Below are positions 6,178 through 42,085 of a stretch of DNA of 48,216 nt, in pieces. Both the position numbers and the translations under genes were made by a program. Source of the DNA: Bacillota bacterium (GTDB taxonomy: Bacteria > Bacillota > Sulfobacillia > JAJZYS01 > JAJYTV01); the NCBI GenBank assembly GCA_021793215.1, contig JAJYTE010000021.1, positions 1 to 48,216 of the forward strand, written 5' to 3'. The notes under the pieces were generated by a model. That model was not told the DNA's origin and did no database searches. It worked only from the letters and a program-made list of their open reading frames with translations. Each line of letters begins with the position of its first letter. The first letter of the stretch is position 1.

Positions 6178-6225
6178 CGGAGGGAGCGGCGCGCGGCGGC
6201 GCGAACTTCTTCGCGAGGTGTGGCC

Positions 6226-7221
6226 ATGCTGCCCGATGCGTTCGAACGCGAGCTCCTGGCCGCGGGCGGTCAGGCGGTCCTGCTCGTCGCGGGGCGCGAG
6301 GCGCTCTGCGCCGAGCGCGCGCTCGCGGCGTGCGCGGTCGATGGCGTCGACGAGTCGCGCGTCGGCCCGGGCCCGCAGCAGCTGCGCGAGGCGGTGGAGC
6401 TTTGCGAGACCCCGTCCTTCTTCGGGGGTGCGCGCCTCGTCGTGGCGTGGGGCGCCGTGGCGCTCGCGGCGAACGCGCGCGCGACGCAGGAGCGCGACGC
6501 GGAGCTTGCGGCGCTCGAGCGGCTGATCGGGGAGCCGCCCACGGGAAGCCGGCTGCTCGTGTGGGCGCCCGACGCAGACAAAAGACTTCGCGCCGTGCGC
6601 CTGCTGCAGGGGCGCGGCGCCCTGCTCGACGCCTCGCCGCCCTCCGCGCGCGAGTACGGCGCCTGGGTGCGCCACCTGGCTGCGAAGGAAGGCGCGCAGC
6701 TGACAGGCGAGGCCGCGCGGGCCTACACGGAGAGCGCGCTCGATCTGCTCGCGCTCGAAGCCGCGCTTCGCGTCGGCGCGGCCTGCGCCGAGGGCGGGCC
6801 GATCACGGGCGAAGTGGCGGCCTGGGCGGCGCCACCCGGCGGCGAGCTAAGGGTTTTCGCGTTGACGGATGCGCTGCTGGGCCGCGATGCGCGCGGACTC
6901 AGCGCCGCCGTGCCGCGCCTTCTGGCGCAGGGCGAGTCCCCGATCGGGCTCGTGGCGCTCGCGGCGCGACAGCTGCGCCTTTTGGCGCGCGCCCTCGGCC
7001 TGCGGGCGCGCGGCGTCGCACCGGCCAAGTGGCAGGCGGAGCTCGGGGTGCACCCGTTCGTCGCGCAGAAGCTGCAGCAGGCGCTGCCGAACTGGTCGAG
7101 GGAGGACCTCGGACGCGCGCTCTCGGAACTGCTCGCCTGCGATCTTTCGTTGAAGTCCGGCGCCGCGCAGGAGGCCGCGCTGCTCCTCAGCCTTCTCAGC
7201 GCCGTGCGCAGGAGCGCATGA
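6226..7221 (+). CDS. holA: DNA polymerase III subunit delta
   Basis: The clamp-loader delta subunit opens the sliding clamp within the gamma/tau complex. At 331 residues it has the family length and shows the AAA+-like layout without a functional Walker A. The N-terminal part includes LLVAGREALCAERAL and ETPSFFGGARLVV, the middle has SRLLVWAPDADKRLRAVRLL, and the C-terminal helical collar includes FALTDALLGRDARGL and VALAARQLRLLARA. ATG 6226 is favoured over the GTG at 6220 because GAGGTG (6215-6220) would be its ribosome-binding site. It is convergent with rpsT, the classical Bacillota neighbour. Confidence 0.9.
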   Translation: MLPDAFERELLAAGGQAVLLVAGREALCAERALAACAVDGVDESRVGPGPQQLREAVELCETPSFFGGARLVVAWGAVALAANARATQERDAELAALERLIGEPPTGSRLLVWAPDADKRLRAVRLLQGRGALLDASPPSAREYGAWVRHLAAKEGAQLTGEAARAYTESALDLLALEAALRVGAACAEGGPITGEVAAWAAPPGGELRVFALTDALLGRDARGLSAAVPRLLAQGESPIGLVALAARQLRLLARALGLRARGVAPAKWQAELGVHPFVAQKLQQALPNWSREDLGRALSELLACDLSLKSGAAQEAALLLSLLSAVRRSA

Positions 7222-8015: not shown

Positions 8016-8705
8016 GTGCGCCCCGAAGGCCGAAGCTCGCGTAGCGAGCTGAAGCCGTGCTTCGCCAGAGATGAGGGAGGGCCCCTCGGAGCCGCCTTGC
8101 AGGGGGAGGCTCCAAACCGCCGTAAGCTGCTGAGGTCCAAAAGCCTTGGTGGTGAGCGTTACGGGAAAAGGCGAGGCTTGACCTCGTCAGGTACGTGCCT
8201 CGGAGCTGAACAACCTTAAACCGCTGTGGACGTGTCGAAATGGATCGGATGTCACCAAAACCAGGATAGGACACCAAGCCTGGGAGGAGTCTGGCGGGTG
8301 CCTGCAGATTGGCCAGACGGTGACCGGCATAAAGGCGGCAGGAACGGGGCACGGGCTCTGGGGCGGAACGGGGGAACCTGCTCTCTGATGGCAAGGGAAA
8401 CCTCCGAAGCGGTAGACCCGTGAGGACCAATACCGATGCAGAGAGCAGGGTCGGGGGCGCCCATAGTAGTGAGGAAGCTCCGTAATGGGAGTGGAGCGAA
8501 GGGGCGCACCTATTCCAGGGTGGCCAATGGCCAACCGAAAGGGAGGAGCCGATGGACGCACCCAAGCCATACGGGATCCCGAAGCAGTCGGTGCTGGACG
8601 CTTGGCGCCTGGTAAAGGCCAACCATGGAGCGGCCGGGATCGACGGCCCATAGCATCGCGATGTTCGAGGCCGACCTGAAGAACAACCTCTACGTCATCT
8701 TGTAA
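8016..8705 (+). mobile_element. Group II intron, 5' fragment (3'-truncated)
   Basis: The element begins GTGCGCC, as many bacterial group II introns do, and carries ribozyme landmarks of domains I-III: GGTGAGCGTTACGGGAAAAG (8150-8169), CATAAAGGCGGCAGGAACGG (8328-8347), the stretch through AACCTCCGAAGCGGTAGACC (8399-8418), and TAGTGAGGAAGCTCCGTAAT (8466-8485). A reverse-transcriptase start follows in domain IV at 8552. Similarity ends about 150 bases later. No domain V hairpin or 3' splice site is visible before spoIIP, so the copy cannot splice or move by itself. The left boundary is set by the GTGCG motif and could be off by a few bases. Confidence 0.85.
8552..8705 (+). pseudogene. ltrA: Group II intron reverse transcriptase (LtrA-type), truncated and frameshifted
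   Basis: From ATG 8552, with GGGAGGA upstream, the frame reads PYGIPKQSVLDAWRLVKAN and then HGAAGIDG, which is the conserved N-terminus of intron-encoded maturase/reverse transcriptases. It hits TAG at 8651-8653. Shifting one base restores the family sequence SIAMFEADLKNNLY until TAA at 8703-8705, after which nothing resembles the RT core. The catalytic YADD region, maturase and endonuclease domains are all absent. It is a non-functional remnant of about 50 codons of a protein that normally has over 400. Confidence 0.88.
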
Positions 8706-9313: not shown

Positions 9314-9433
9314 GGGCGCGGCGTGTGGCGGAACCTTCGCGCCGAGGGAGCTGGGGGGCGCGGCGTGCGTCGGCGCGAAGTGCGCTTCTCAGGCGTCGGC
9401 GCGACGCATACAGGCTACCGAGGTGGTCTAGCG

Positions 9434-10525
9434 TTGCGTCGTCGTCGCCTGCGGGTGCTGCGGGTCGGGCGCCTGGGGCGGCTGCTCGCCTGGCCCATGA
9501 CGCTGCTCGTAGCGCTTCTCGGCTTCGCAGGCAGCCGCGCGGTGGCGCCGGCGATCGCGCAGGGCGGCTTCTCGCACCTGCCGCCGCAGGCCGTTCCGCT
9601 GCCCCCGGAGACGCTGCGCTACCTGCTCGGCAGCGGACTTCCGGCGCTCGGGCTCGCGCAGCCGGTGCGCGCCCCTTTGGGCGCGTCCGGGCCGCGCCTC
9701 GCGGCCTTCCTCGACTACGCGTTCGTCGGCATCGCGCCACACGATCCCGAGACGCTCTTCTCCACGGCGTTCGCCGGCTTCGGGTTCTCCGCGAGGACAA
9801 CTGCGCCCGCGGGCCCGTCGCTAACGACGTGGCTGCGCCAGGTCGGGGCGGCGCAGAGCCCGGCGCCGCCCAAGGCGGCCGGTCAGGTCCTCTACGGGAA
9901 GGGCTCGCCGCTCGTCGCGATCTACGCGACCGAGGGCCTCGGCGCCTACACTGGGAAGAAGATTGCCGCGCAGTCGCCGCCGCCCACCTCCAAGAACCTC
10001 TCGACGAATGCGCTCGGCCTTGCGCAGGAGATCTCGAAGGCGCTGGGCGACGCGGGCGTCGCGACGCTGTTCGCGAACACGGTCAACGACGGGGAGGGAG
10101 AGCTCGGCGCCTACCTCAAGTCCGCCCACACGGTGCAGGCGCTCCTGAAGGCCGCGCCGAGCGCGGGCCTCGTGCTCGACGTCGAGCGGCCCGCCTACCC
10201 ACCGAGCGCGCCGGTGCGCAGCGTGCACGGCCAGAAGGTCGCGTCGATCACGCTCGTCGTGGGCACTGGCGAGCGGCTGCCGGACAAGAACTGGCAGCAG
10301 AACCTCGCGATCGCGAAGGGGCTCGGCGCCTACCTGCAGTCGGTCGCTCCCGGTGTGTTCGCCGGCATCGCGAAGTCCCCGGACCGCCTGAACCAGGAGT
10401 ACTCCCCGACGATCCTGACGCTCGACATCGGCGGCCCGGAGGCGACACCGCAGCAGGCGCGGCGCGCGGTCGCCTACGTCGTGAAGGCGATCGCGGCGTA
10501 CCTCCGGGGGGCGCCGGTGCCTTGA
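9434..10525 (+). CDS. spoIIP: SpoIIP-family sporulation protein with altered active site
   Basis: A 363-residue protein with an Arg-rich N-terminus, one membrane segment (MTLLVALLGF, about residue 22-40) and a SpoIIP-like amidase domain at 140-360. In the SpoIIDMP complex of the forespore septum, SpoIIP cleaves peptidoglycan during engulfment. Alignment landmarks are clear: ALGLAQEISKALGDAGVATL, VVGTGE with KNWQQNLAIA, LNQEYSPTILTLDIGG. The catalytic motifs are not: the usual YHTHTSE is IYATEG (Ala165-Glu167), DIHRD is DVERP (249-253), and the late Glu is Asp331. TTG 9434 has GAGGTGG upstream. Placement before lepA is canonical. It is probably inactive as an amidase or uses other residues. 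Confidence 0.8.
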   Translation: MRRRRLRVLRVGRLGRLLAWPMTLLVALLGFAGSRAVAPAIAQGGFSHLPPQAVPLPPETLRYLLGSGLPALGLAQPVRAPLGASGPRLAAFLDYAFVGIAPHDPETLFSTAFAGFGFSARTTAPAGPSLTTWLRQVGAAQSPAPPKAAGQVLYGKGSPLVAIYATEGLGAYTGKKIAAQSPPPTSKNLSTNALGLAQEISKALGDAGVATLFANTVNDGEGELGAYLKSAHTVQALLKAAPSAGLVLDVERPAYPPSAPVRSVHGQKVASITLVVGTGERLPDKNWQQNLAIAKGLGAYLQSVAPGVFAGIAKSPDRLNQEYSPTILTLDIGGPEATPQQARRAVAYVVKAIAAYLRGAPVP

Positions 10526-10606: not shown

Positions 10607-10936
10607 TTGGCGGATAACGTTGGCAGCGTCTCGGAGGACACCTTCGCGACCGAGGTGCTCGGTTCCGACCGGCCGGTTCTCGTCGACTTCTGGGCGGAGT
10701 GGTGCGGCCCGTGCCGCATGGTCTCGCCGGTCGTGGAGGACCTGGCGGGCGAGTTCGGCGAGCGGCTGAAGGTCGTCAAGCTGAACGTGGACGAGAACCC
10801 GCACATCGCCTCGCAGTACGGGATCATGAGCATCCCGACGCTCGCGGTCTTCACCGAGGGCAAGCTCAAGGAGCGGCTCGTGGGCTACCGGCCGAAGAAC
10901 CAGTTGCGCCAGGAGCTCGAGCGGACGATCGCCTGA
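10607..10936 (+). CDS. trxA: Thioredoxin
   Basis: A 109-residue cytoplasmic disulfide reductase. The active site is WCGPC with Cys33 and Cys36; VLVDFWAE precedes it, and SIPTLAVF carries the cis-proline loop. LNVDENPHIASQYGI is the typical central segment. TTG 10607 is preceded by GGGAGGGGAAAGA. It stands alone between spoIIP and a minus-strand peptidase, followed by a strong hairpin. It presumably serves general thiol reduction. Confidence 0.97.
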   Translation: MADNVGSVSEDTFATEVLGSDRPVLVDFWAEWCGPCRMVSPVVEDLAGEFGERLKVVKLNVDENPHIASQYGIMSIPTLAVFTEGKLKERLVGYRPKNQLRQELERTIA

Positions 10937-12362: not shown

Positions 12363-12815
12363 TCAGATGTAGTACGCGAGGGCGACGATCACACCGAGCA
12401 CTGCGCCGGCGACGACCTCCTGCGGCGTGTGGCCGAGATGCTCCTTGAACTCCTCCTGGCTCCCGCCGAGGAACGAGTTGAGGAAGCGCGCCTGCTGTCC
12501 GACCGCGTAGCGGATGTTGACCGCGTCGTAGAGCACGATCACCGAGAAGATGGACACGATCGCGAACAGGTCGGAGTGCCAGCCGTGCGTGAAGCCGACG
12601 GACGCTCCCAGCGCCGTGACCATCGCCGAGTGGGCGCTGGGCATGCCTCCGGAGCTGAAAAGGCGCTCCGAGATGACGGTGCGCGCCCGCACGGAAGAAA
12701 CGATGAACTTGATCACCTGCGCCGCGGCCATGCCGGAGAACGCGGTGATCAGCATGCGGTTCTCGTTGGCCACCTGGTGCATGAAGAAGAGCAGCGCATG
12801 GAATAAGGGGTGCAC
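12363..12815 (-). CDS. Divergent PAP2-family membrane protein (YuiD type)
   Basis: A 150-residue protein with four to five hydrophobic segments and the two motifs of the divergent PAP2/DUF212 family: [17 protein letters not shown] and [15 protein letters not shown], which correspond to the PSGH and SRxxxxxHxxxD phosphatase motifs. It is predicted to act on a lipid phosphate or a related membrane substrate, but the family's biochemistry is poorly settled. GTG 12815 has GGGAGG eleven bases upstream. It is 13 bases upstream of the M20 peptidase start on the same strand, so the two probably share a transcript. Confidence 0.85.
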
Positions 12816-12968
12816 GGTCAGTGGACCTCCCGGCGGATTGCGCTTGGAAGTTCCCGAAGCGCCCGCGCATATCCTGCCCGCATGCCGCTTTTGACGAGGC
12901 AGGTGGCCCGTGCTACGGTGAAGGACACAGCAGCGTCCGACGCTGCAGGGAAGGCGGAGAGCCAAGGC

Positions 12969-14771
12969 TTGGAGGCCCAGCGGGATCATATCCGCAACTT
13001 CTGCATCATCGCCCACATCGATCACGGCAAATCGACGTTGGCCGACCGCCTGATCGAGGCGACCGGCACCCTTGCCGCGCGCGAAATGCACGAGCAGGTG
13101 CTCGACTCGATGGACCTCGAGCGCGAGCGCGGCATCACGATCAAGGCCCAGGCCGTCCGCCTCGACTACCGGCGGGAGGACGGCGAGGTGTACGAGCTGA
13201 ACCTCATCGATACCCCCGGCCACGTCGACTTCTCCTACGAGGTGTCGCGCTCGCTCGCCGCGTGCGAGGGGGCCATCCTGGTCATCGACGCGGCGCAGGG
13301 CGTCGAGGCCCAGACGCTGGCGAACCTCTACCTCGCGCTGGAGCACGACCTCGAGATCATCCCGGTGATCAACAAGATCGACCTGCCGCAGGCAGATCCC
13401 GAGCGCGTGCGCGAGGAGCTCGAGCGGATCGGCATCGATCCGGACGGCGCCGTGCTGGCGTCCGCCAAGGAGGGGCGCGGCATCGCCGAGATCCTCGAAG
13501 CCGTCGTCGACCGCGTGCCGCCGCCGACGGGCGACGCGGATGCGCCGCTCAAGGCGCTCGTCTTCGACTCGCACTTCGACGCCTACCGCGGCGTCGTCTG
13601 CCATGTGCGCGTCGTCGACGGCGCGCTGCGCTCCGGCGGACGGATCCGCCTGATGGCGACGGGCGCGGCGTACGAAGTGACGGACCTCGGTACCTTCCGT
13701 CCCGCCCCGACCCTCGCGGGCACGCTCGGGGCGGGGGAGGTCGGCTTCTTCGCGGCGGGCATCAAGAACGTGCGCGACGCGCGCGTCGGCGACACGGTGA
13801 CGGCGGCGGAGCGCGGCTCCCCGTCCCCGCTGCCGGGCTACCGCCCGGCCGTGCCGATGGTCTTCGCCGGCCTCTACCCGAGCGAGCCGAGCCGCTACGA
13901 CGTGCTGCGCGAGGCGCTGGAGCGCCTGCAGTTGAACGACGCGGCGCTCTCCTTCGAACCGGAGACGTCCGGTGCGCTCGGCTTCGGTTTCCGCTGCGGC
14001 TTCCTCGGCCTTCTGCACCTCGAGATCGTGCAGGAGCGCCTCGAGCGCGAGTTCGACATGGACCTTGTCGTCACCGCCCCGAGCGTCGTCTACACCATCC
14101 ACTACCAGGGCGGTGCCGTGGAGCGGATCGAGAACCCGGCCGCCCTCCACCCGGAGCGCGGAGTCGAGCAGATCGACGAACCGTACGTCGAGGCGACGGT
14201 GATCGCGCCGACGACCTACGTCGGTGCGGTGATGGAACTGTGCCAGGAGCGGCGCGGCCAGTTCAAGACCATCGACTACCCGTCCCCGGACCGCGCCGTC
14301 CTCACCTACCTCGTGCCGCTCGGCGAGATCATGTACGACTTCTTCGACCAGCTGAAGTCCAGGACGCGCGGCTACGCTTCGCTCGACTACCAGCTGGTCG
14401 ACAGCCGGCCGGGCGACCTCGTGCGGGTCGACGTCCTCCTGAACGCCGAGGTGATCGACGCGCTCTCCTTCATCTGCCACCGGGACCAGGCCGAGGGGCA
14501 GGGGCGCGCGGTGTGCGAGAAGCTGCGCGAGGTGATCCCGCGCCAGCTGTTCGACGTGCCGATCCAGGCGGCGGTCGGCGGCAGGGTGCTGGCGCGCGAA
14601 ACGATCCGCGCCCTCCGGAAGGACGTGCTCGCGAAGTGCTACGGAGGGGACATCACCCGCAAGCGCAAGCTGCTGGAGAAGCAGAAGGAAGGCAAGAAGA
14701 GGATGCGCCGGCTCGGCCAGGTGGAGGTGCCGCAGGAGGCGTTCATGGCCGTCCTGCGCCGCGGTGACTGA
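12969..14771 (+). CDS. lepA: Elongation factor 4 (LepA GTPase)
   Basis: Ribosome-associated translational GTPase implicated in back-translocation and 30S assembly. From TTG 12969 it is 600 residues, the standard LepA length. It begins [20 protein letters not shown] with the P-loop, then [16 protein letters not shown] (switch I), [12 protein letters not shown] (switch II) and [13 protein letters not shown] (NKxD). Domains II-III, the LepA-specific [20 protein letters not shown] and the basic C-terminal domain ([20 protein letters not shown]) are all present. In-frame starts at 12882 and 12918 have weaker ribosome-binding sites. hemW overlaps its last eight bases, indicating translational coupling. 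Confidence 0.96.
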
Positions 14772-15909
14772 GGAGTTCGGCGTCTACGTCCACCTGCCGT
14801 ACTGCCCCTACAAGTGCCACTACTGCGACTTCAACGCCTACCGGCTGCCGCGCGCGCCGGAGGCCCGCCGCGAGATGACGAGGGCGATCGCGCGGGAGAT
14901 CGAGCGGGCGCCCGGCGAGGACAGGGGCAAAAAGGTGGGGTCCGTGTTCTTCGGCGGCGGCACCCCGAGCCTCTTCGCGCCCGACGAGATCGCCGAGATC
15001 CTGCGCGCGATCTCAGGGCGCTACGCGCGCTCGCGACGCGCCGAGGTGACGCTCGAGTGCAACCCTGGGACGGTTGATCTCGCGGCGCTTGTCGCCCTGC
15101 GCCGCGCCGGCGTGAACCGCCTCTCGATCGGCGCGCAGAGCTTCCGCGAGGAGACGCTCACGCGCATCGGCCGGCTTCACACGCCGGAGGAGACGCGCTC
15201 GGCTGTCGCGATGGCGCGGGAGGCGGGCTTTCGGAACATCTCGCTCGACATCATCTACGGCCTGCCGGGCGAGACGCCCGAGGACGCCGAGGAGAGCGCG
15301 CGCATCGCCCTCTCGCTCGGCGTCGAGCACCTCTCCGCCTACGCCCTCGAGCTCGAGGAGCGCACGCTCTTCGGCCGGCTCGAGGCGCAGGGGAAACTCG
15401 AGCTTCTGCCGGATGACGAGGTCGTGCGCGCGGGCGAGCTCGTGGGCGCCGCCTGCGAGGCGGCGGGCCTTCAGCGCTACGAGGTCTCGAACTTCGCGCG
15501 CCCCGGGCGGCGCTCGCGGCATAACATGCTCTACTGGCACCAGGGATCCTACCGCGGCTTTGGCCCCGGTGCCCACTCGCACCTCAGCGGCCACAGGTTC
15601 TGGAACGCCTCGCCGCCGGGAGTGTACCTCTCGCGCGTCGCGGCGGGCGGCGAGGCGCGAGAGGAAGGCGAAGTGCTCTCCTCGGAGGCCGTGATGGGCG
15701 AGTGGGTCTACCTGCGGCTGCGCCTCGCCGAGGGCTTCGCGCTGCGGGCGTTCGCGCAGCGCTTCGGCCAGTCGCTCGATGCGGCCTACCCCGGCGTGCG
15801 CCGGGATCTCCTCGCCCAAGGGCTCCTCGAGCGGCTGCCCGGGTGGGTGCGCCCGACGGCGCGCGGGCGCTGGCTCCTGCACCGGGTGGCGGCGCCCTTC
15901 CTCGCTTGA
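14764..15909 (+). CDS. hemW: HemW-type radical SAM protein
   Basis: A 381-residue radical SAM protein of the HemN/HemW family. The iron-sulfur signature is [13 protein letters not shown], in which the family aromatic residue follows the CxxxCxxC cysteines. [25 protein letters not shown] and [14 protein letters not shown] follow as in HemW. The shorter N-terminus lacks the extra cysteine context of coproporphyrinogen dehydrogenase HemN, so heme chaperone or heme insertion is the more likely role. GTG 14764 overlaps the lepA stop by eight bases, and lepA-hemW-hrcA is the canonical Bacillota order. Confidence 0.93.
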
Positions 15910-15981: not shown

Positions 15982-16989
15982 GTGCTTGACGTGCGCAAAC
16001 TGCTCGTGCTGCGCGCCATCGTCGAAGATTACGTCGCGTCGGCGGAGCCGATCGGCTCGCGCACGCTCGCCCGCACGCACAACCTAGGGGTCAGCTCGGC
16101 GACCATCCGCAACGAGATGGCGGACCTCGAAGCGCTGGGGCTGCTCGACAAGCCGCACACGTCGGCGGGCCGCGTTCCGTCCGACCGCGGCTACCGCCTG
16201 TACGTCGACCGGCTGATGGAGCCCGCGACGCTCGCCGAGAGCGACTTCCAGCAAATCCGCGGCCTCTACCTCAGCCGCGTGCGCGAGATGGAGTACTTGA
16301 TCGCCCAGACGGTGCGCCTTCTAAGCAGCACCGGGGACTTCATGACCCTGGCCGTCGGGCCGGAGCCGCGGCGCGCCACGCTGATGCGCCTCGAGGCGGT
16401 GCCGGTCGAGGAAGGCCGGATGGCGCTCGTGCTGGTGACCGACTACTACGTGCAGCACCGACTGATCGAACTCCCAGAGGACCTTGACCCGGAGAACCTG
16501 CGCCTGACGCTGCGCGAGCTCTCGGAGCGGCTGCGCGGCCTGACGATCGAGAAGCTGACGCGCTCGGTGCTCGAGACGGTGGCGCGCGAGGTGCGCCGGG
16601 AGATCTACGATGAACTCGTCGACTTCGTAGAGGAGTGCCTCACGCCCGGCGACGGCGACCGTGTGCGCATCTCGGGCACGGGGAACTTCCTCAGCCAGCC
16701 GGAGTTCCGCGAGGCGGAGCAGATCCGCGCCGCGATCCAGCTGATCGAGCAGGAATCGGTACTGGGCCACCTGCTGCGCGACGCGTCCGGCGCCGGCGTG
16801 CAGGTGCGCATCGGACAGGAGAACCCGCTGCCGCCGGCGCGGGACCTCTCGATCGTGACGATCGGGATCGAGCGCGGCGGCGAGATGTTCGCCCGCTTCG
16901 GGCTCGTCGCGCCGAAGCGCATGGACTACGCCAAGGCGCTCGCGTTGGCGCAGCAAGTCTTCGAGGCGCTGGACGAGGCGATCAACTAA
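15982..16989 (+). CDS. hrcA: Heat-inducible transcription repressor HrcA
   Basis: A 335-residue repressor of class I heat-shock genes that binds CIRCE. The N-terminal winged-helix region has YVASAEPIGSRTLAR, GVSSATIRNEMADLEALGLL and PHTSAGRVPSDRGYRLYVD, all HrcA hallmarks. The GAF-like central domain and the C-terminal GIERGGEMFARFGLVAPKR complete it. GTG 15982 follows a GGGGG-rich ribosome-binding site 11 bases upstream; the CIRCE element lies just before it. It is first in an operon with grpE, dnaJ and prmA. dnaK, its usual co-regulated gene, is absent here. Confidence 0.97.
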   Translation: MLDVRKLLVLRAIVEDYVASAEPIGSRTLARTHNLGVSSATIRNEMADLEALGLLDKPHTSAGRVPSDRGYRLYVDRLMEPATLAESDFQQIRGLYLSRVREMEYLIAQTVRLLSSTGDFMTLAVGPEPRRATLMRLEAVPVEEGRMALVLVTDYYVQHRLIELPEDLDPENLRLTLRELSERLRGLTIEKLTRSVLETVAREVRREIYDELVDFVEECLTPGDGDRVRISGTGNFLSQPEFREAEQIRAAIQLIEQESVLGHLLRDASGAGVQVRIGQENPLPPARDLSIVTIGIERGGEMFARFGLVAPKRMDYAKALALAQQVFEALDEAIN

Positions 16990-16990
16990 A

Positions 16991-17018
16991 CCGCGCCCGG
17001 CGAAACCGCCGGGCGCGG
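16991..17018 (+). promoter_or_regulatory. Intercistronic hairpin between hrcA and grpE
   Basis: CCGCGCCCGGCG and CGCCGGGCGCGG form a perfect 12-bp stem around AAAC, two bases after the hrcA stop and before the grpE ribosome-binding site. No U-run follows, so it may be a partial attenuator or an mRNA-stabilising or processing element that sets the hrcA to grpE ratio. Confidence 0.65.
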
Positions 17019-17039
17019 CCACGATGGAGGGACCACCCG

Positions 17040-17561
17040 TTGAGCGAGAAGAGGAGTCCGGAGGAAGAGGAGACGGGGCAGGAGGAGCCGATGGCTCCAG
17101 GGCAGGAGGCCGAATCCGTGGCGCAGGACGCGCTCGCGGCCCGCGTCGCGGAGCTCGAGCAGCAGAACCTGCGCCTGCTCGCGGACTTCGAGAACTTCCG
17201 ACGCCGGCAGGCCCGCGCGGAGCAGGAACTGCGCCAGCGGGTCTACGAGGAGGCGGTCGCGGCGATCCTGCCGCTCGCCGACGACCTCGAGCGGGCCCTG
17301 CAGGCGTCCTCCGAGGACGACCCCCTGCGCGCCGGCGTCGCGATGGTCGAGCGCTCCCTGCAGGGCCTCTTGCAGCGCTTCGGCGCCATGCCGATCGCCG
17401 CCCTCGGGGAGGCGTTCGACCCGGCGCTGCACGAGGCGGTCGGCGAGGACGAGAGTGACCTTTCGCCCGGCAGCGTGACCGCCGAGCTGCGGCGCGGCTA
17501 CCGCATCGACGACCGCGTCGTGCGGCCCGCCCTGGTGCGGGTCGCGCGGGGCCGAGAGTGA
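17040..17561 (+). CDS. grpE: GrpE nucleotide exchange factor
   Basis: A 173-residue homodimeric nucleotide exchange factor for DnaK. An acidic N-terminal tail (residues 1-35) leads into the long coiled coil with [20 protein letters not shown]. The four-helix bundle and beta-wing follow: [32 protein letters not shown], and the closing [20 protein letters not shown] 17040 has GGAGGG eight bases upstream. dnaJ starts ten bases after its stop. Its client DnaK must be encoded elsewhere, because no dnaK lies in this operon. Confidence 0.96.
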
Positions 17562-17571
17562 GGCGGACCTG

Positions 17572-18687
17572 ATGGCGAAGGACTACTACGAGGTGCTGGG
17601 CGTCGCGCGCGGCGCCTCGGAAGAGGAGATCAAGAAAGCCTTCCGTCGTCTGGCGCGCGAGCACCACCCGGACCACAACCCGGGCGACAAGGGTGCGGAG
17701 GACCGCTTCAAGGAGATCAACGAGGCGTACTCCGTGCTCTCGGATCCCGGCAAGCGCGCGAACTACGACCAGTTCGGCTCCGAGAACGGCCCCAATCCCG
17801 GACCCGGTGCGGGCGGCTTCGGCGGAGGCAGCCCGTTCGGCGACATCGGGGACATCTTCGACGCCTTCTTCGGCGGCGGCGCCGGCCAGCGCCGCACGGG
17901 ACCCGCCCGCGGCGAGGACCTTCGGGTCGACATGGAGCTGACGCTGGAGGACTGCTTCCGCGGCGTCGAGCGCGAAGTGCGCCTGACGCGCCAGGAGACG
18001 TGCGAGAGCTGCCAGGGCACGGGCGGCAAGGGCGGGGAGCGCCCGTCGCGCTGCGCGCGCTGCGGCGGCACGGGCCAGGTGCAGCAGGCGCGCGACACGG
18101 CGTTCGGCCGCTTCGTCACGGCGCGCCCCTGCCCCGAGTGCCACGGCGCGGGCCAGACGGTCAAGGAGCCCTGCCCCGCCTGCCACGGCTCAGGTCAGCA
18201 GCGCAAGACGCGGACGCTGAAGGTGCGCATCCCGGCAGGCGTCGAGGACGGCCAGCGCGTGCGCCTCTCCGGCGAGGGCGAGCCCGGCGTGCGCGGCGGC
18301 CCCCCGGGAGACCTCTACGTGTTCGTGCGCGAGCGGCAGCACGAGCGCTTCGTGCGCCAGGGCTCCGAGCTGCACGTCGAGCTGGCGATCGGCTTCCCGG
18401 AGGCGGCGCTCGGCGACGAGTTCGAACTCGCGGGCATCGACGGCCCGGTGAAAGTAAAGGTCGCGGAGGGCACGCAGCCCGGCCAGCAGATCCACGTGCG
18501 CGCAAAGGGGATGCCGCATGTGCGGGGCGGCGGGCGCGGCGACCTCGTGGTGCATGTCGTGCTGCGGGTGCCGCGCCGGCTGACGGGCGAGGAGCGCGAC
18601 CTCCTGCAGCGCTTCAAGGAGCTGCGCGGCAAGGGTGGCGATGGCGATAAGGGTTTCTTCGGTCGGGTCAAGGACGCGTTCCGCTGA
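17572..18687 (+). CDS. dnaJ: Chaperone DnaJ
   Basis: Hsp40 co-chaperone of 371 residues, full type I architecture: a J domain with HPD at residues 32-34, a Gly/Phe-rich linker (about 75-105), the zinc-finger domain with four CxxCxGxG repeats ([32 protein letters not shown]) and the C-terminal substrate-binding domains. It stimulates DnaK ATPase and delivers substrates. It directly follows grpE, so it is regulated by HrcA/CIRCE. prmA begins inside its 3' end. Confidence 0.98.
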
Positions 18688-22443: not shown

Positions 22444-22713
22444 TTGGCAGACCTGCGCGACGCCTTGAGCCGCTGGCTCGACCTGCCGGAGGAAGTGACG
22501 CTCGACCTACCGCGCCTGCGGCTCGTGGGGGGTCTGCAGGTGATGGTCGAGAACCACCTCGGCGTGCGCTCCTTCCACGAGGACGAGGCCGTCGTCGCGA
22601 CGAAGATCGGCGACCTGCTGATCTGGGGCGCGGACCTCAGGGTCGGGGCGGTCTCGGAGGACGCCGTGCTGGTCACCGGACGCATCGAAGGGCTGCGTTA
22701 CATCCGTGGCTGA
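22444..22713 (+). CDS. yqfC: Sporulation protein YqfC
   Basis: An 89-residue member of the YabP/YqfC family, expressed in the mother cell in spore formers. DALSRWLDLPEEVTLDLPRL is the family start, followed by VENHLGVRSFHEDEAVVATK. TTG 22444 with AAGGGGG upstream gives the usual N-terminus; GTG 22414 would add ten residues. It overlaps yqfD by eight bases. Its function is unknown beyond sporulation association. Confidence 0.88.
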   Translation: MADLRDALSRWLDLPEEVTLDLPRLRLVGGLQVMVENHLGVRSFHEDEAVVATKIGDLLIWGADLRVGAVSEDAVLVTGRIEGLRYIRG

Positions 22714-23830
22714 GGGCATCTGGCTGCGCCTGCGCTTCTCCGGCAAGCAGAGCGCATTCTTCCGCGCCGCCCAGGAGGCGTCCGTGAAGGCGCGCGGGCT
22801 GCGCGCGCGCGGCGACGCGCTCGACTTCGAACTGCCGGTCGCGGACGTGCTGCGCCTGCGGCGGGCGCTGAGCCGGCGCGACGGCCGCCTGCAGCTCCTG
22901 GGGCACGGCGGCTGGCCGCTCGCGATCCGCTCGCTGCGGCGAAGGCCGTGGCGCATCGTCCTGCCGCTGCTCGTGGGCCTTCTCTACGTCGGGGCGTCGG
23001 CCGTCGTGTGGCAGGTGCAGGTGGTGGGGCCGAAGGGCCTGCCGGTGCGAAAGCTGCTCGCGGCGGCACGCGCGCAGGGGCTCGCGCCGGGGCGCTACCG
23101 CTTCGCGCTCCATCCGCGGGCGCTCGGACTCGCGATCCAGCGCGAGGTGGGCGGCCTCATCTTCTGCACCGTGCGGATCGACGGCGTGCGGGCCTTCATC
23201 TACGCGGCGCCGCAGCTGCCAGCGCCGAAGGCGCCCAGCCCGCCCTCCTACGGGCCGATCACGGCGTCCGAGGCGGGCTACGTGACGCGCGTCGTCGTCG
23301 AGCGCGGCCTGCCCGCCGTGGCGCGCGGCGAGACGGTGCTGCCCGGCCAGCCGCTGATCCTGCCGCGCGGCGGGGAGGCGCGCGGCGCGGTTTTCGCGCG
23401 CATCTGGCGCACGTACTCCTACACGCTCTCGCTCGAGGAGAAGCGCCTCTTCCGCACGGGGAGTACCGCCCAGCGCTGGTATATCCGCCTGCCGTGGGGG
23501 ACAGAATGGACGCCGCAGGGGAAGAAGAGCCCCTACCCCCGCTCCCGTGTGCAGGTGCGAACCTGGAGGATTCCCTTCCTGTCCGTCGAAGTCTCGCGCC
23601 GGACATATGTCGAACTGCGCCGCGTCACGCTGACCGCCCGGCCGAGTTACGCCGAAGCGCAAGCGGAGGGCAAGGCGCTGACGGCGTTGCGGCGCGCGAC
23701 GCCGCAGGCCAAGGTCCTTCTCGTGCAGGAGCGGGACACGCGACAGGGAACCGTCCTTGTAGTGCGGGTGCGCGTGGAAGCGGAGACGGATATCGCGCAA
23801 GCCGCGACAGGGGGCAGAACCCAGGATTGA
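22706..23830 (+). CDS. yqfD: Sporulation protein YqfD
   Basis: A 374-residue membrane-anchored sporulation protein. The N-terminal cytoplasmic part (1-90) precedes a membrane segment, IVLPLLVGLLYVGASAVVW, and a large outer domain with the family features IQREVGGLIFCTVRIDGVRA and GYVTRVVVERGLPAVARGET (a bipartite GxV-like repeat). GTG 22706 overlaps yqfC, and phoH starts inside its stop, so the three are translationally coupled. Confidence 0.9.
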   Translation: MAEGIWLRLRFSGKQSAFFRAAQEASVKARGLRARGDALDFELPVADVLRLRRALSRRDGRLQLLGHGGWPLAIRSLRRRPWRIVLPLLVGLLYVGASAVVWQVQVVGPKGLPVRKLLAAARAQGLAPGRYRFALHPRALGLAIQREVGGLIFCTVRIDGVRAFIYAAPQLPAPKAPSPPSYGPITASEAGYVTRVVVERGLPAVARGETVLPGQPLILPRGGEARGAVFARIWRTYSYTLSLEEKRLFRTGSTAQRWYIRLPWGTEWTPQGKKSPYPRSRVQVRTWRIPFLSVEVSRRTYVELRRVTLTARPSYAEAQAEGKALTALRRATPQAKVLLVQERDTRQGTVLVVRVRVEAETDIAQAATGGRTQD

Positions 23831-39717: not shown

Positions 39718-40797
39718 TTGCACGTGAGCCAGAAGGAACTGCCGGTGGACGGGATGCAGGACCTCATTCGGCGCGGTAAGGAAACCGGGTCTCTCACTTA
39801 CGACGACGTCGGGAAGGCCTTGCAGGGCAATGAGCTGACACCCGAGCAGATTGACGCGGTGTACGAGCGGCTCACCGACCTCGGCATCGAGGTGATGGCG
39901 GTCGGCGAGGCGGAGCAGAAGAGCGAAGAGAGCGAGGACACCGCGGAGATCGCGGTGCCGGACGGAGTCGCCATCGACGACCCCGTCCGCATGTACCTCA
40001 AGGAGATCGGCCGCGTGCCGCTGCTCAACGCCGAGATGGAGGTCGAGCTCGCCCGCCGCATCGAGGAAGGCGACGACGAGGCCAAGCGCCGGCTCGCGGA
40101 GGCGAACCTGCGCCTCGTCGTCAGCATCGCGAAGCGCTACGTCGGGCGGGGCATGCTGTTCCTGGACCTGATCCAGGAGGGCAACCTCGGCCTCATCAAG
40201 GCCGTAGAGAAGTTCGACTACCGCAAGGGCTACAAGTTCTCCACCTATGCCACCTGGTGGATCCGCCAGGCGATCACGCGGGCGATCGCCGACCAGGCGC
40301 GCACCATCCGCATCCCGGTGCACATGGTCGAGACGATCAACAAGCTGATCCGCGTGCAACGCCACCTGCTGCAGGAGCTCGGGCGCGAGCCGACCGCGGA
40401 GGAGATCGCCGAGGAGATGGAGGTCTCGGTGGAGCGGGTGCGCGAGATCCTCAAGGTCGCGCAGGAGCCCGTATCGCTCGAGACGCCGATCGGCGAGGAG
40501 GAGGACTCCCACCTCGGGGACTTCATCGAGGACGAGGACGCGCCGGCGCCGGCGGAGGCCGCGAGCTACCTCCTGCTGCGCGAGCAGATCGGCGAGGTGC
40601 TCTCCTCCTTGACGCCCCGCGAGAAGCGCGTGCTCGAACTGCGCTTCGGGCTCGACGACGGCCGCGCGCGCACGCTCGAAGAGGTCGGCCAGGTCTTCGG
40701 GGTGACGCGCGAGCGCATCCGGCAGATCGAGGCGAAGGCCCTGCGCAAGCTTCGCCACCCGAGTCGATCGAAGAAGTTGAAAGACTACCTCGAGTAG
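39718..40797 (+). CDS. rpoD: Housekeeping RNA polymerase sigma factor, copy 1
   Basis: A 359-residue sigma-70 group 1 factor of the short Bacillota type. Region 1.1 occupies about 1-70, region 1.2 has [16 protein letters not shown], region 2 has the -10 recognition helix [20 protein letters not shown], region 3 ends near [16 protein letters not shown], and region 4.2 is [20 protein letters not shown], ending KLKDYLE. TTG 39718 has GGAGGGGGTGA upstream. It is tightly coupled to dnaG. A close paralogue follows 196 bases downstream. Confidence 0.97.
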
Positions 40798-40856: not shown

Positions 40857-40993
40857 TACGTGTTACGGTTGCCCATACTACCCAAATGTAGTAGGTTGCC
40901 ACGGTTTTTGGTCGAAGAGACGGTTCGAGCCGGCCGTCGTGTCACGCACGAGGGCCCGCTTTCGCGTCGGTGGCCAGGATGGAGGTGCCTCCC

Positions 40994-42085
<1,092 letters not shown>

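Follow-up and report, generated by a model that had tools for sequence, protein, structure and literature searches.

Analysis of the 48,216-nucleotide stretch of contig JAJYTE010000021.1 (hereafter the window) revealed a spoIIP orthologue whose catalytic residues are replaced, and the same replacements were found in every distinct SpoIIP of its family. SpoIIP (PF07454, TIGR02867) is the amidase/endopeptidase of the SpoIID–SpoIIM–SpoIIP engulfment complex. The comparisons below indicate that the window's family has given up the known SpoIIP chemistry but retained the protein. We consider that this true orthologue has probably turned into a conserved pseudoenzyme, which would bind the wall within an engulfment complex of reduced composition.

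The features of the window on which this reading draws are as follows.

6220–7221, + strand: holA, upstream neighbour and marker of the usual spoIIP locus (PF21694/PF06144)
9434–10525, + strand: spoIIP orthologue with replaced catalytic residues, 363 aa (PF07454, TIGR02867), sole copy in the genome
9482–9541, + strand: N-terminal hydrophobic anchor, approximately residues 17–36, read from the sequence and kept in relatives
9920–9949, + strand: former motif 1, residues 163–172, IYATEGLGAY in place of IYHTHxxESY (family and profile alignments)
10178–10192, + strand: former motif 2, residues 249–253, DVERP in place of DxHRD (family and profile alignments)
10415–10435, + strand: former motif 3, residues 328–334, LTLDIGG in place of LLLEIGG (family and profile alignments)
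10607–10936, + strand: thioredoxin gene, downstream neighbour (PF00085), in the same order in relatives
12810–14771, + strand: lepA (translation), downstream neighbour, identified by sequence without a profile search, true start inside the ORF
14764–15909, + strand: hemW/hemN-like radical SAM gene, downstream neighbour (PF04055, PF06969)

The spoIIP ORF starts with a TTG codon and has GAGGTGG just 5' of it (9420–9426). In the Pfam profile search its product matched the SpoIIP profile with 85.6 bits (E 5.2e-24; profile positions 78–269 of 269), exceeding the curated cut-off of 24.4 bits, and the full-length match to TIGR02867 (NCBIfam) scored 98.6 bits, below the cut-off of 123.15 bits. The N-terminus consists of a basic stretch followed by the hydrophobic anchor. 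The N-terminal region also carries a PHDP motif (residues 102–105; 9737–9748) that is conserved in the family; its His is kept in all family members, and the motif is missing in the aligned outgroup sequences. The gene order holA, rpsT, spoIIP, trx, M20 peptidase, lepA, hemW, hrcA, grpE, dnaJ is common to relatives, and we take the order at the window to match the usual Bacillota spoIIP locus. An earlier note on this DNA had described a SpoIIP homologue without the conserved amidase residues, and the profile score, the neighbourhood and the residues at the four positions (E167, G170, E251 and D331) bear this description out. A second, intact spoIIP, which the note had proposed to look for, was not found in a profile search of the source genome (2.74 Mb, 97.7% complete), leaving a single copy.

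Within motif 1, the catalytic His is Glu167 (9932–9934) and the Glu of HTHxxE is Gly170; the catalytic His of motif 2 is Glu251 (10184–10186), and the late Glu of motif 3 is Asp331 (10424–10426). When a profile of eight family members was compared with one of 13 intact SpoIIPs drawn from the survey described below, the two sets aligned with Prob 99.9 and E 2.2e-36 and without gaps at the three motifs, and a shifted motif alignment was thereby rejected. Columns H92, E95, H178 and E258, which represent the second HTH histidine, the Glu three positions after it, the DxHRD His and the late Glu, are invariant across the 13 intact sequences and correspond to the replaced positions. The motif alignment of the earlier note was thus not displaced: it had placed DVERP at 249–253 and Asp331 correctly, and had recognized IYATEG as the counterpart of motif 1 but misnumbered it (residues 163–168, not 165–167). 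Compared with ordinary SpoIIPs, the window protein shares the profile family, the N-terminal anchor and the locus between holA/rpsT and lepA/hemW, whereas it differs in that both catalytic His are Glu, the Glu of HTHxxE is Gly or Ala, the late Glu is Asp, DxHRD ends in Pro, the Asn of GGxxN is lost and the TIGR02867 score lies under the cut-off.

In Clostridioides difficile SpoIIP, H142R in the HTH motif and H222R in the DxHRD motif abolished activity and sporulation (PMC6221140), and E309 is required for spores (PMC6934232). In a comparison of Bacilli and Clostridia, strict conservation of both histidines was described for every orthologue examined, and some ordinary orthologues have Asp in place of the late Glu (PMC6934232). 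The C. difficile enzyme is active, yet zinc was not detectable in it (PMC6221140); its mechanism is therefore incompletely understood. A natural SpoIIP with an altered catalytic site was not reported in any paper that our literature searches turned up.

Analysis of the order covered 15 genomes, mostly metagenome assemblies, 10 of which belong to the window's family. Nine of these ten contained one SpoIIP each, and the eight distinct sequences, which come from two genera with approximately 50% identity in the domain, share the reading E-[G/A]-E-D; as none of the eight departs from these replacements, sequencing error and chance are excluded. The family SpoIIP is under purifying selection; no member has an interrupted frame, and dN/dS, approximate because obtained by a simple counting method, was below 1 in every family pair (0.12–0.53 for the domain). 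Of the 22 pocket positions that we picked around the three motifs, 15 are invariant, compared with 57 of 177 elsewhere in the domain (p 0.0013). The domain holds no conserved His or Cys in the family, and one member has neither residue at all.

This conserved pocket is a point against the pseudoenzyme reading, as it is also expected of a rebuilt active site or of a ligand site. It keeps alive the possible but unlikely alternative that Glu167, Glu251 and Asp331 form a rebuilt carboxylate site, bound to metal or resembling that of aspartic/glutamic hydrolases, which would still cut peptidoglycan and would perhaps suit an acidic outside, where histidines would be protonated. The exchanges themselves are consistent with such a site: both catalytic His became Glu and the late Glu became Asp with no exception in two genera, the latter residue has precedent in ordinary SpoIIPs (PMC6934232), and His is scarce across the whole domain (0–3 in the family vs 4–12 in the relatives compared). 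However, Sulfobacillaceae-like relatives keep the ordinary site, and the CwlD-like amidase of the same genomes retains its histidines. Less likely again is an all-carboxylate amidase of this kind that continues to drive engulfment and may be adapted to acidic surroundings. A structural pseudoenzyme is favoured over a rebuilt carboxylate site.

Alternatively, the protein might have been repurposed for a task at the margin of sporulation or beyond it, with a pocket that binds an ion, a partner protein or a piece of peptidoglycan but no longer catalyses a reaction. The very long stem branch of the family (1.8–1.9 changes per column) with short inner branches, and invariant residues specific to the family such as E223, K229 and P253, would fit such a change of role. 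Repurposing nevertheless appears quite improbable, as the usual spoIIP locus is kept and the gene is missing from sister genomes without the tested sporulation genes, both of which tie spoIIP to sporulation. A PDB sequence search with the window protein alone gave chance matches only, and a structure model predicted from this protein plus three relatives was too poor for use (pLDDT 39, pTM 0.38).

Family-by-family searches revealed Spo0A, Gpr, SpoIIM, SpoIVA and SpoIIIAH in the source genome. The SpoIIM match to TIGR02831 scored 99.4 bits, just below the cut-off of 100.2, and two congeneric genomes gave scores above it. The window itself contains a homologue of the stage IV sporulation protein YqfD (22706–23830; PF06898, 163.5 bits), whose predicted identity is further evidence for a sporulation programme. 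The earlier note had also considered that the altered SpoIIP might mark a stage on the way to losing sporulation, and the sister family f2 (three genomes of approximately 1.5–1.6 Mb), in which SpoIIP, Spo0A, Gpr, SpoIID, SpoIIM, SpoIVA and SpoIIIAH were all not found, speaks for this reading. The window's family, in contrast, keeps the genes missing from f2 except for canonical SpoIID, and decay is also contradicted by the open frames, the purifying selection and the conserved pocket; since Spo0A, SpoIIM, SpoIVA, SpoIIIAH and Gpr are retained, we regard decay toward loss of sporulation as very improbable.

Canonical SpoIID was not found in the window's family, which has only a SPOR-SpoIID/LytB protein of approximately 575–600 aa with a SPOR domain; this is the sole SpoIID-domain protein of the source genome. 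It scored 146 bits with TIGR02870 (spore_II_D), vs a cut-off of 234.75, and is nearer the LytB type than canonical SpoIID, with the EMP glutamate kept. The suggestion of the earlier note that the altered protein is a structural partner of SpoIID thus needs revision, because the canonical partner was not found. The genome also encodes one CwlD-like Amidase_3 protein with an intact zinc site (His, Glu, His, Glu).

In the wider lineage, we surveyed 86 usable SpoIIPs, one per genome, and left out two fragmentary hits; a scan of viral contigs for additional usable SpoIIPs yielded none. The four catalytic positions read H-E-H-E in 72 sequences and were altered in 14, eight of which belong to the window's family. 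Altered sequences outside the window's family read REAE (genome G376), DEHE (G384), DEHD (G330), IEEE (G311), FQQE (G383) and FQAR (G367). The Glu that arose independently at motif 2 of G311 and the Asp at motif 1 of G384 and G330 favour a rebuilt carboxylate site; the Arg, Ile, Phe, Ala or Gln of other altered members, on the other hand, resembles plain loss. In a tree built with the catalytic columns omitted, all 14 altered SpoIIPs fell within one clade of 20, and none of the 66 sequences outside it was altered. The clade also holds six intact sequences, which we take to be from Sulfobacillaceae. Grouping of the 14 altered sequences as a single clade, and with it a single origin of the altered site, was rejected (p-AU 0.0013); therefore at least three changes are needed, and a larger number if regain of the site is impossible. 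SpoIID was not found in any of the seven Sulfobacillaceae-like genomes tested, nor in G367, G384 or G311, and was present in G330, in G376 (LytB type) and in the outgroups G316 and G008. A published survey also reported Sulfobacillus without SpoIID (PMC7924749).

If SpoIIP is a structural pseudoenzyme in the window's family, it would still be produced in sporulating cells and be anchored by its N-terminal helix. Its role at the septum and the engulfing edge would be structural or one of tracking, through binding to SpoIIM or to peptidoglycan. The remaining wall cutting for engulfment would fall to other hydrolases, for which the SPOR-SpoIID/LytB protein and the intact CwlD-like amidase are candidates. 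In the wider lineage the enzymatic SpoIID–SpoIIM–SpoIIP machine may have been relaxed, with SpoIID mostly missing and the SpoIIP site lost several times.

A precedent for an engulfment hydrolase homologue retained as a structural, non-catalytic part is SpoIIQ of Bacilli, a LytM-type engulfment protein with a degenerate zinc motif (PMC6934232), although SpoIIQ belongs to another family and fold than SpoIIP. We found no literature report of a non-catalytic SpoIIP comparable to SpoIIQ. Similarity of SpoIIP to the Amidase_3 zinc amidases (CwlD, CwlV, AmiA/C; PDB 4rn7) is weak at the profile level, and the sole, weak match of the intact-SpoIIP profile in the PDB was the amidase 4rn7. In the profile alignment with Amidase_3, the DxHRD His pairs with the SxHxN zinc His, and the late Glu pairs with the catalytic Glu. 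Unlike the Amidase_3 enzymes, among them the separate intact CwlD-like amidase of its own genome, the window protein lacks all of these zinc ligands.

SpoIIP catalysis is regarded as essential for engulfment, and the present finding questions whether the cutting activity is needed in every case: the window's family keeps other engulfment and spore genes without the SpoIIP active site, in a lineage where SpoIID is mostly missing. If the pseudoenzyme reading is true, the wall-cutting role of the SpoIID–SpoIIM–SpoIIP complex can be abandoned or transferred, and the family would be a natural case in which the structural role of SpoIIP is separated from its enzymatic one. The idea is testable, because the lineage includes Sulfobacillaceae (a putative label), which have cultured members.

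Several further observations concern the surroundings of the gene. Between rpsT and spoIIP lies a group II intron remnant (8073–8192; RF01999, 115.5 bits), followed before spoIIP by a truncated reverse-transcriptase-like start (approximately 8552–8652). Many Bacillota have gpr between rpsT and spoIIP; gpr of the source genome is on a different contig and not at the spoIIP locus. Downstream, hrcA, grpE and dnaJ are adjacent (15982–18687) with no dnaK between grpE and dnaJ, as is also the case in the relative L062. Farther along the window, two RpoD-type sigma factors are encoded in tandem (39718–40797 and 40970–42085); both have regions 1.1 to 4 and are highly similar from region 1.2 on.
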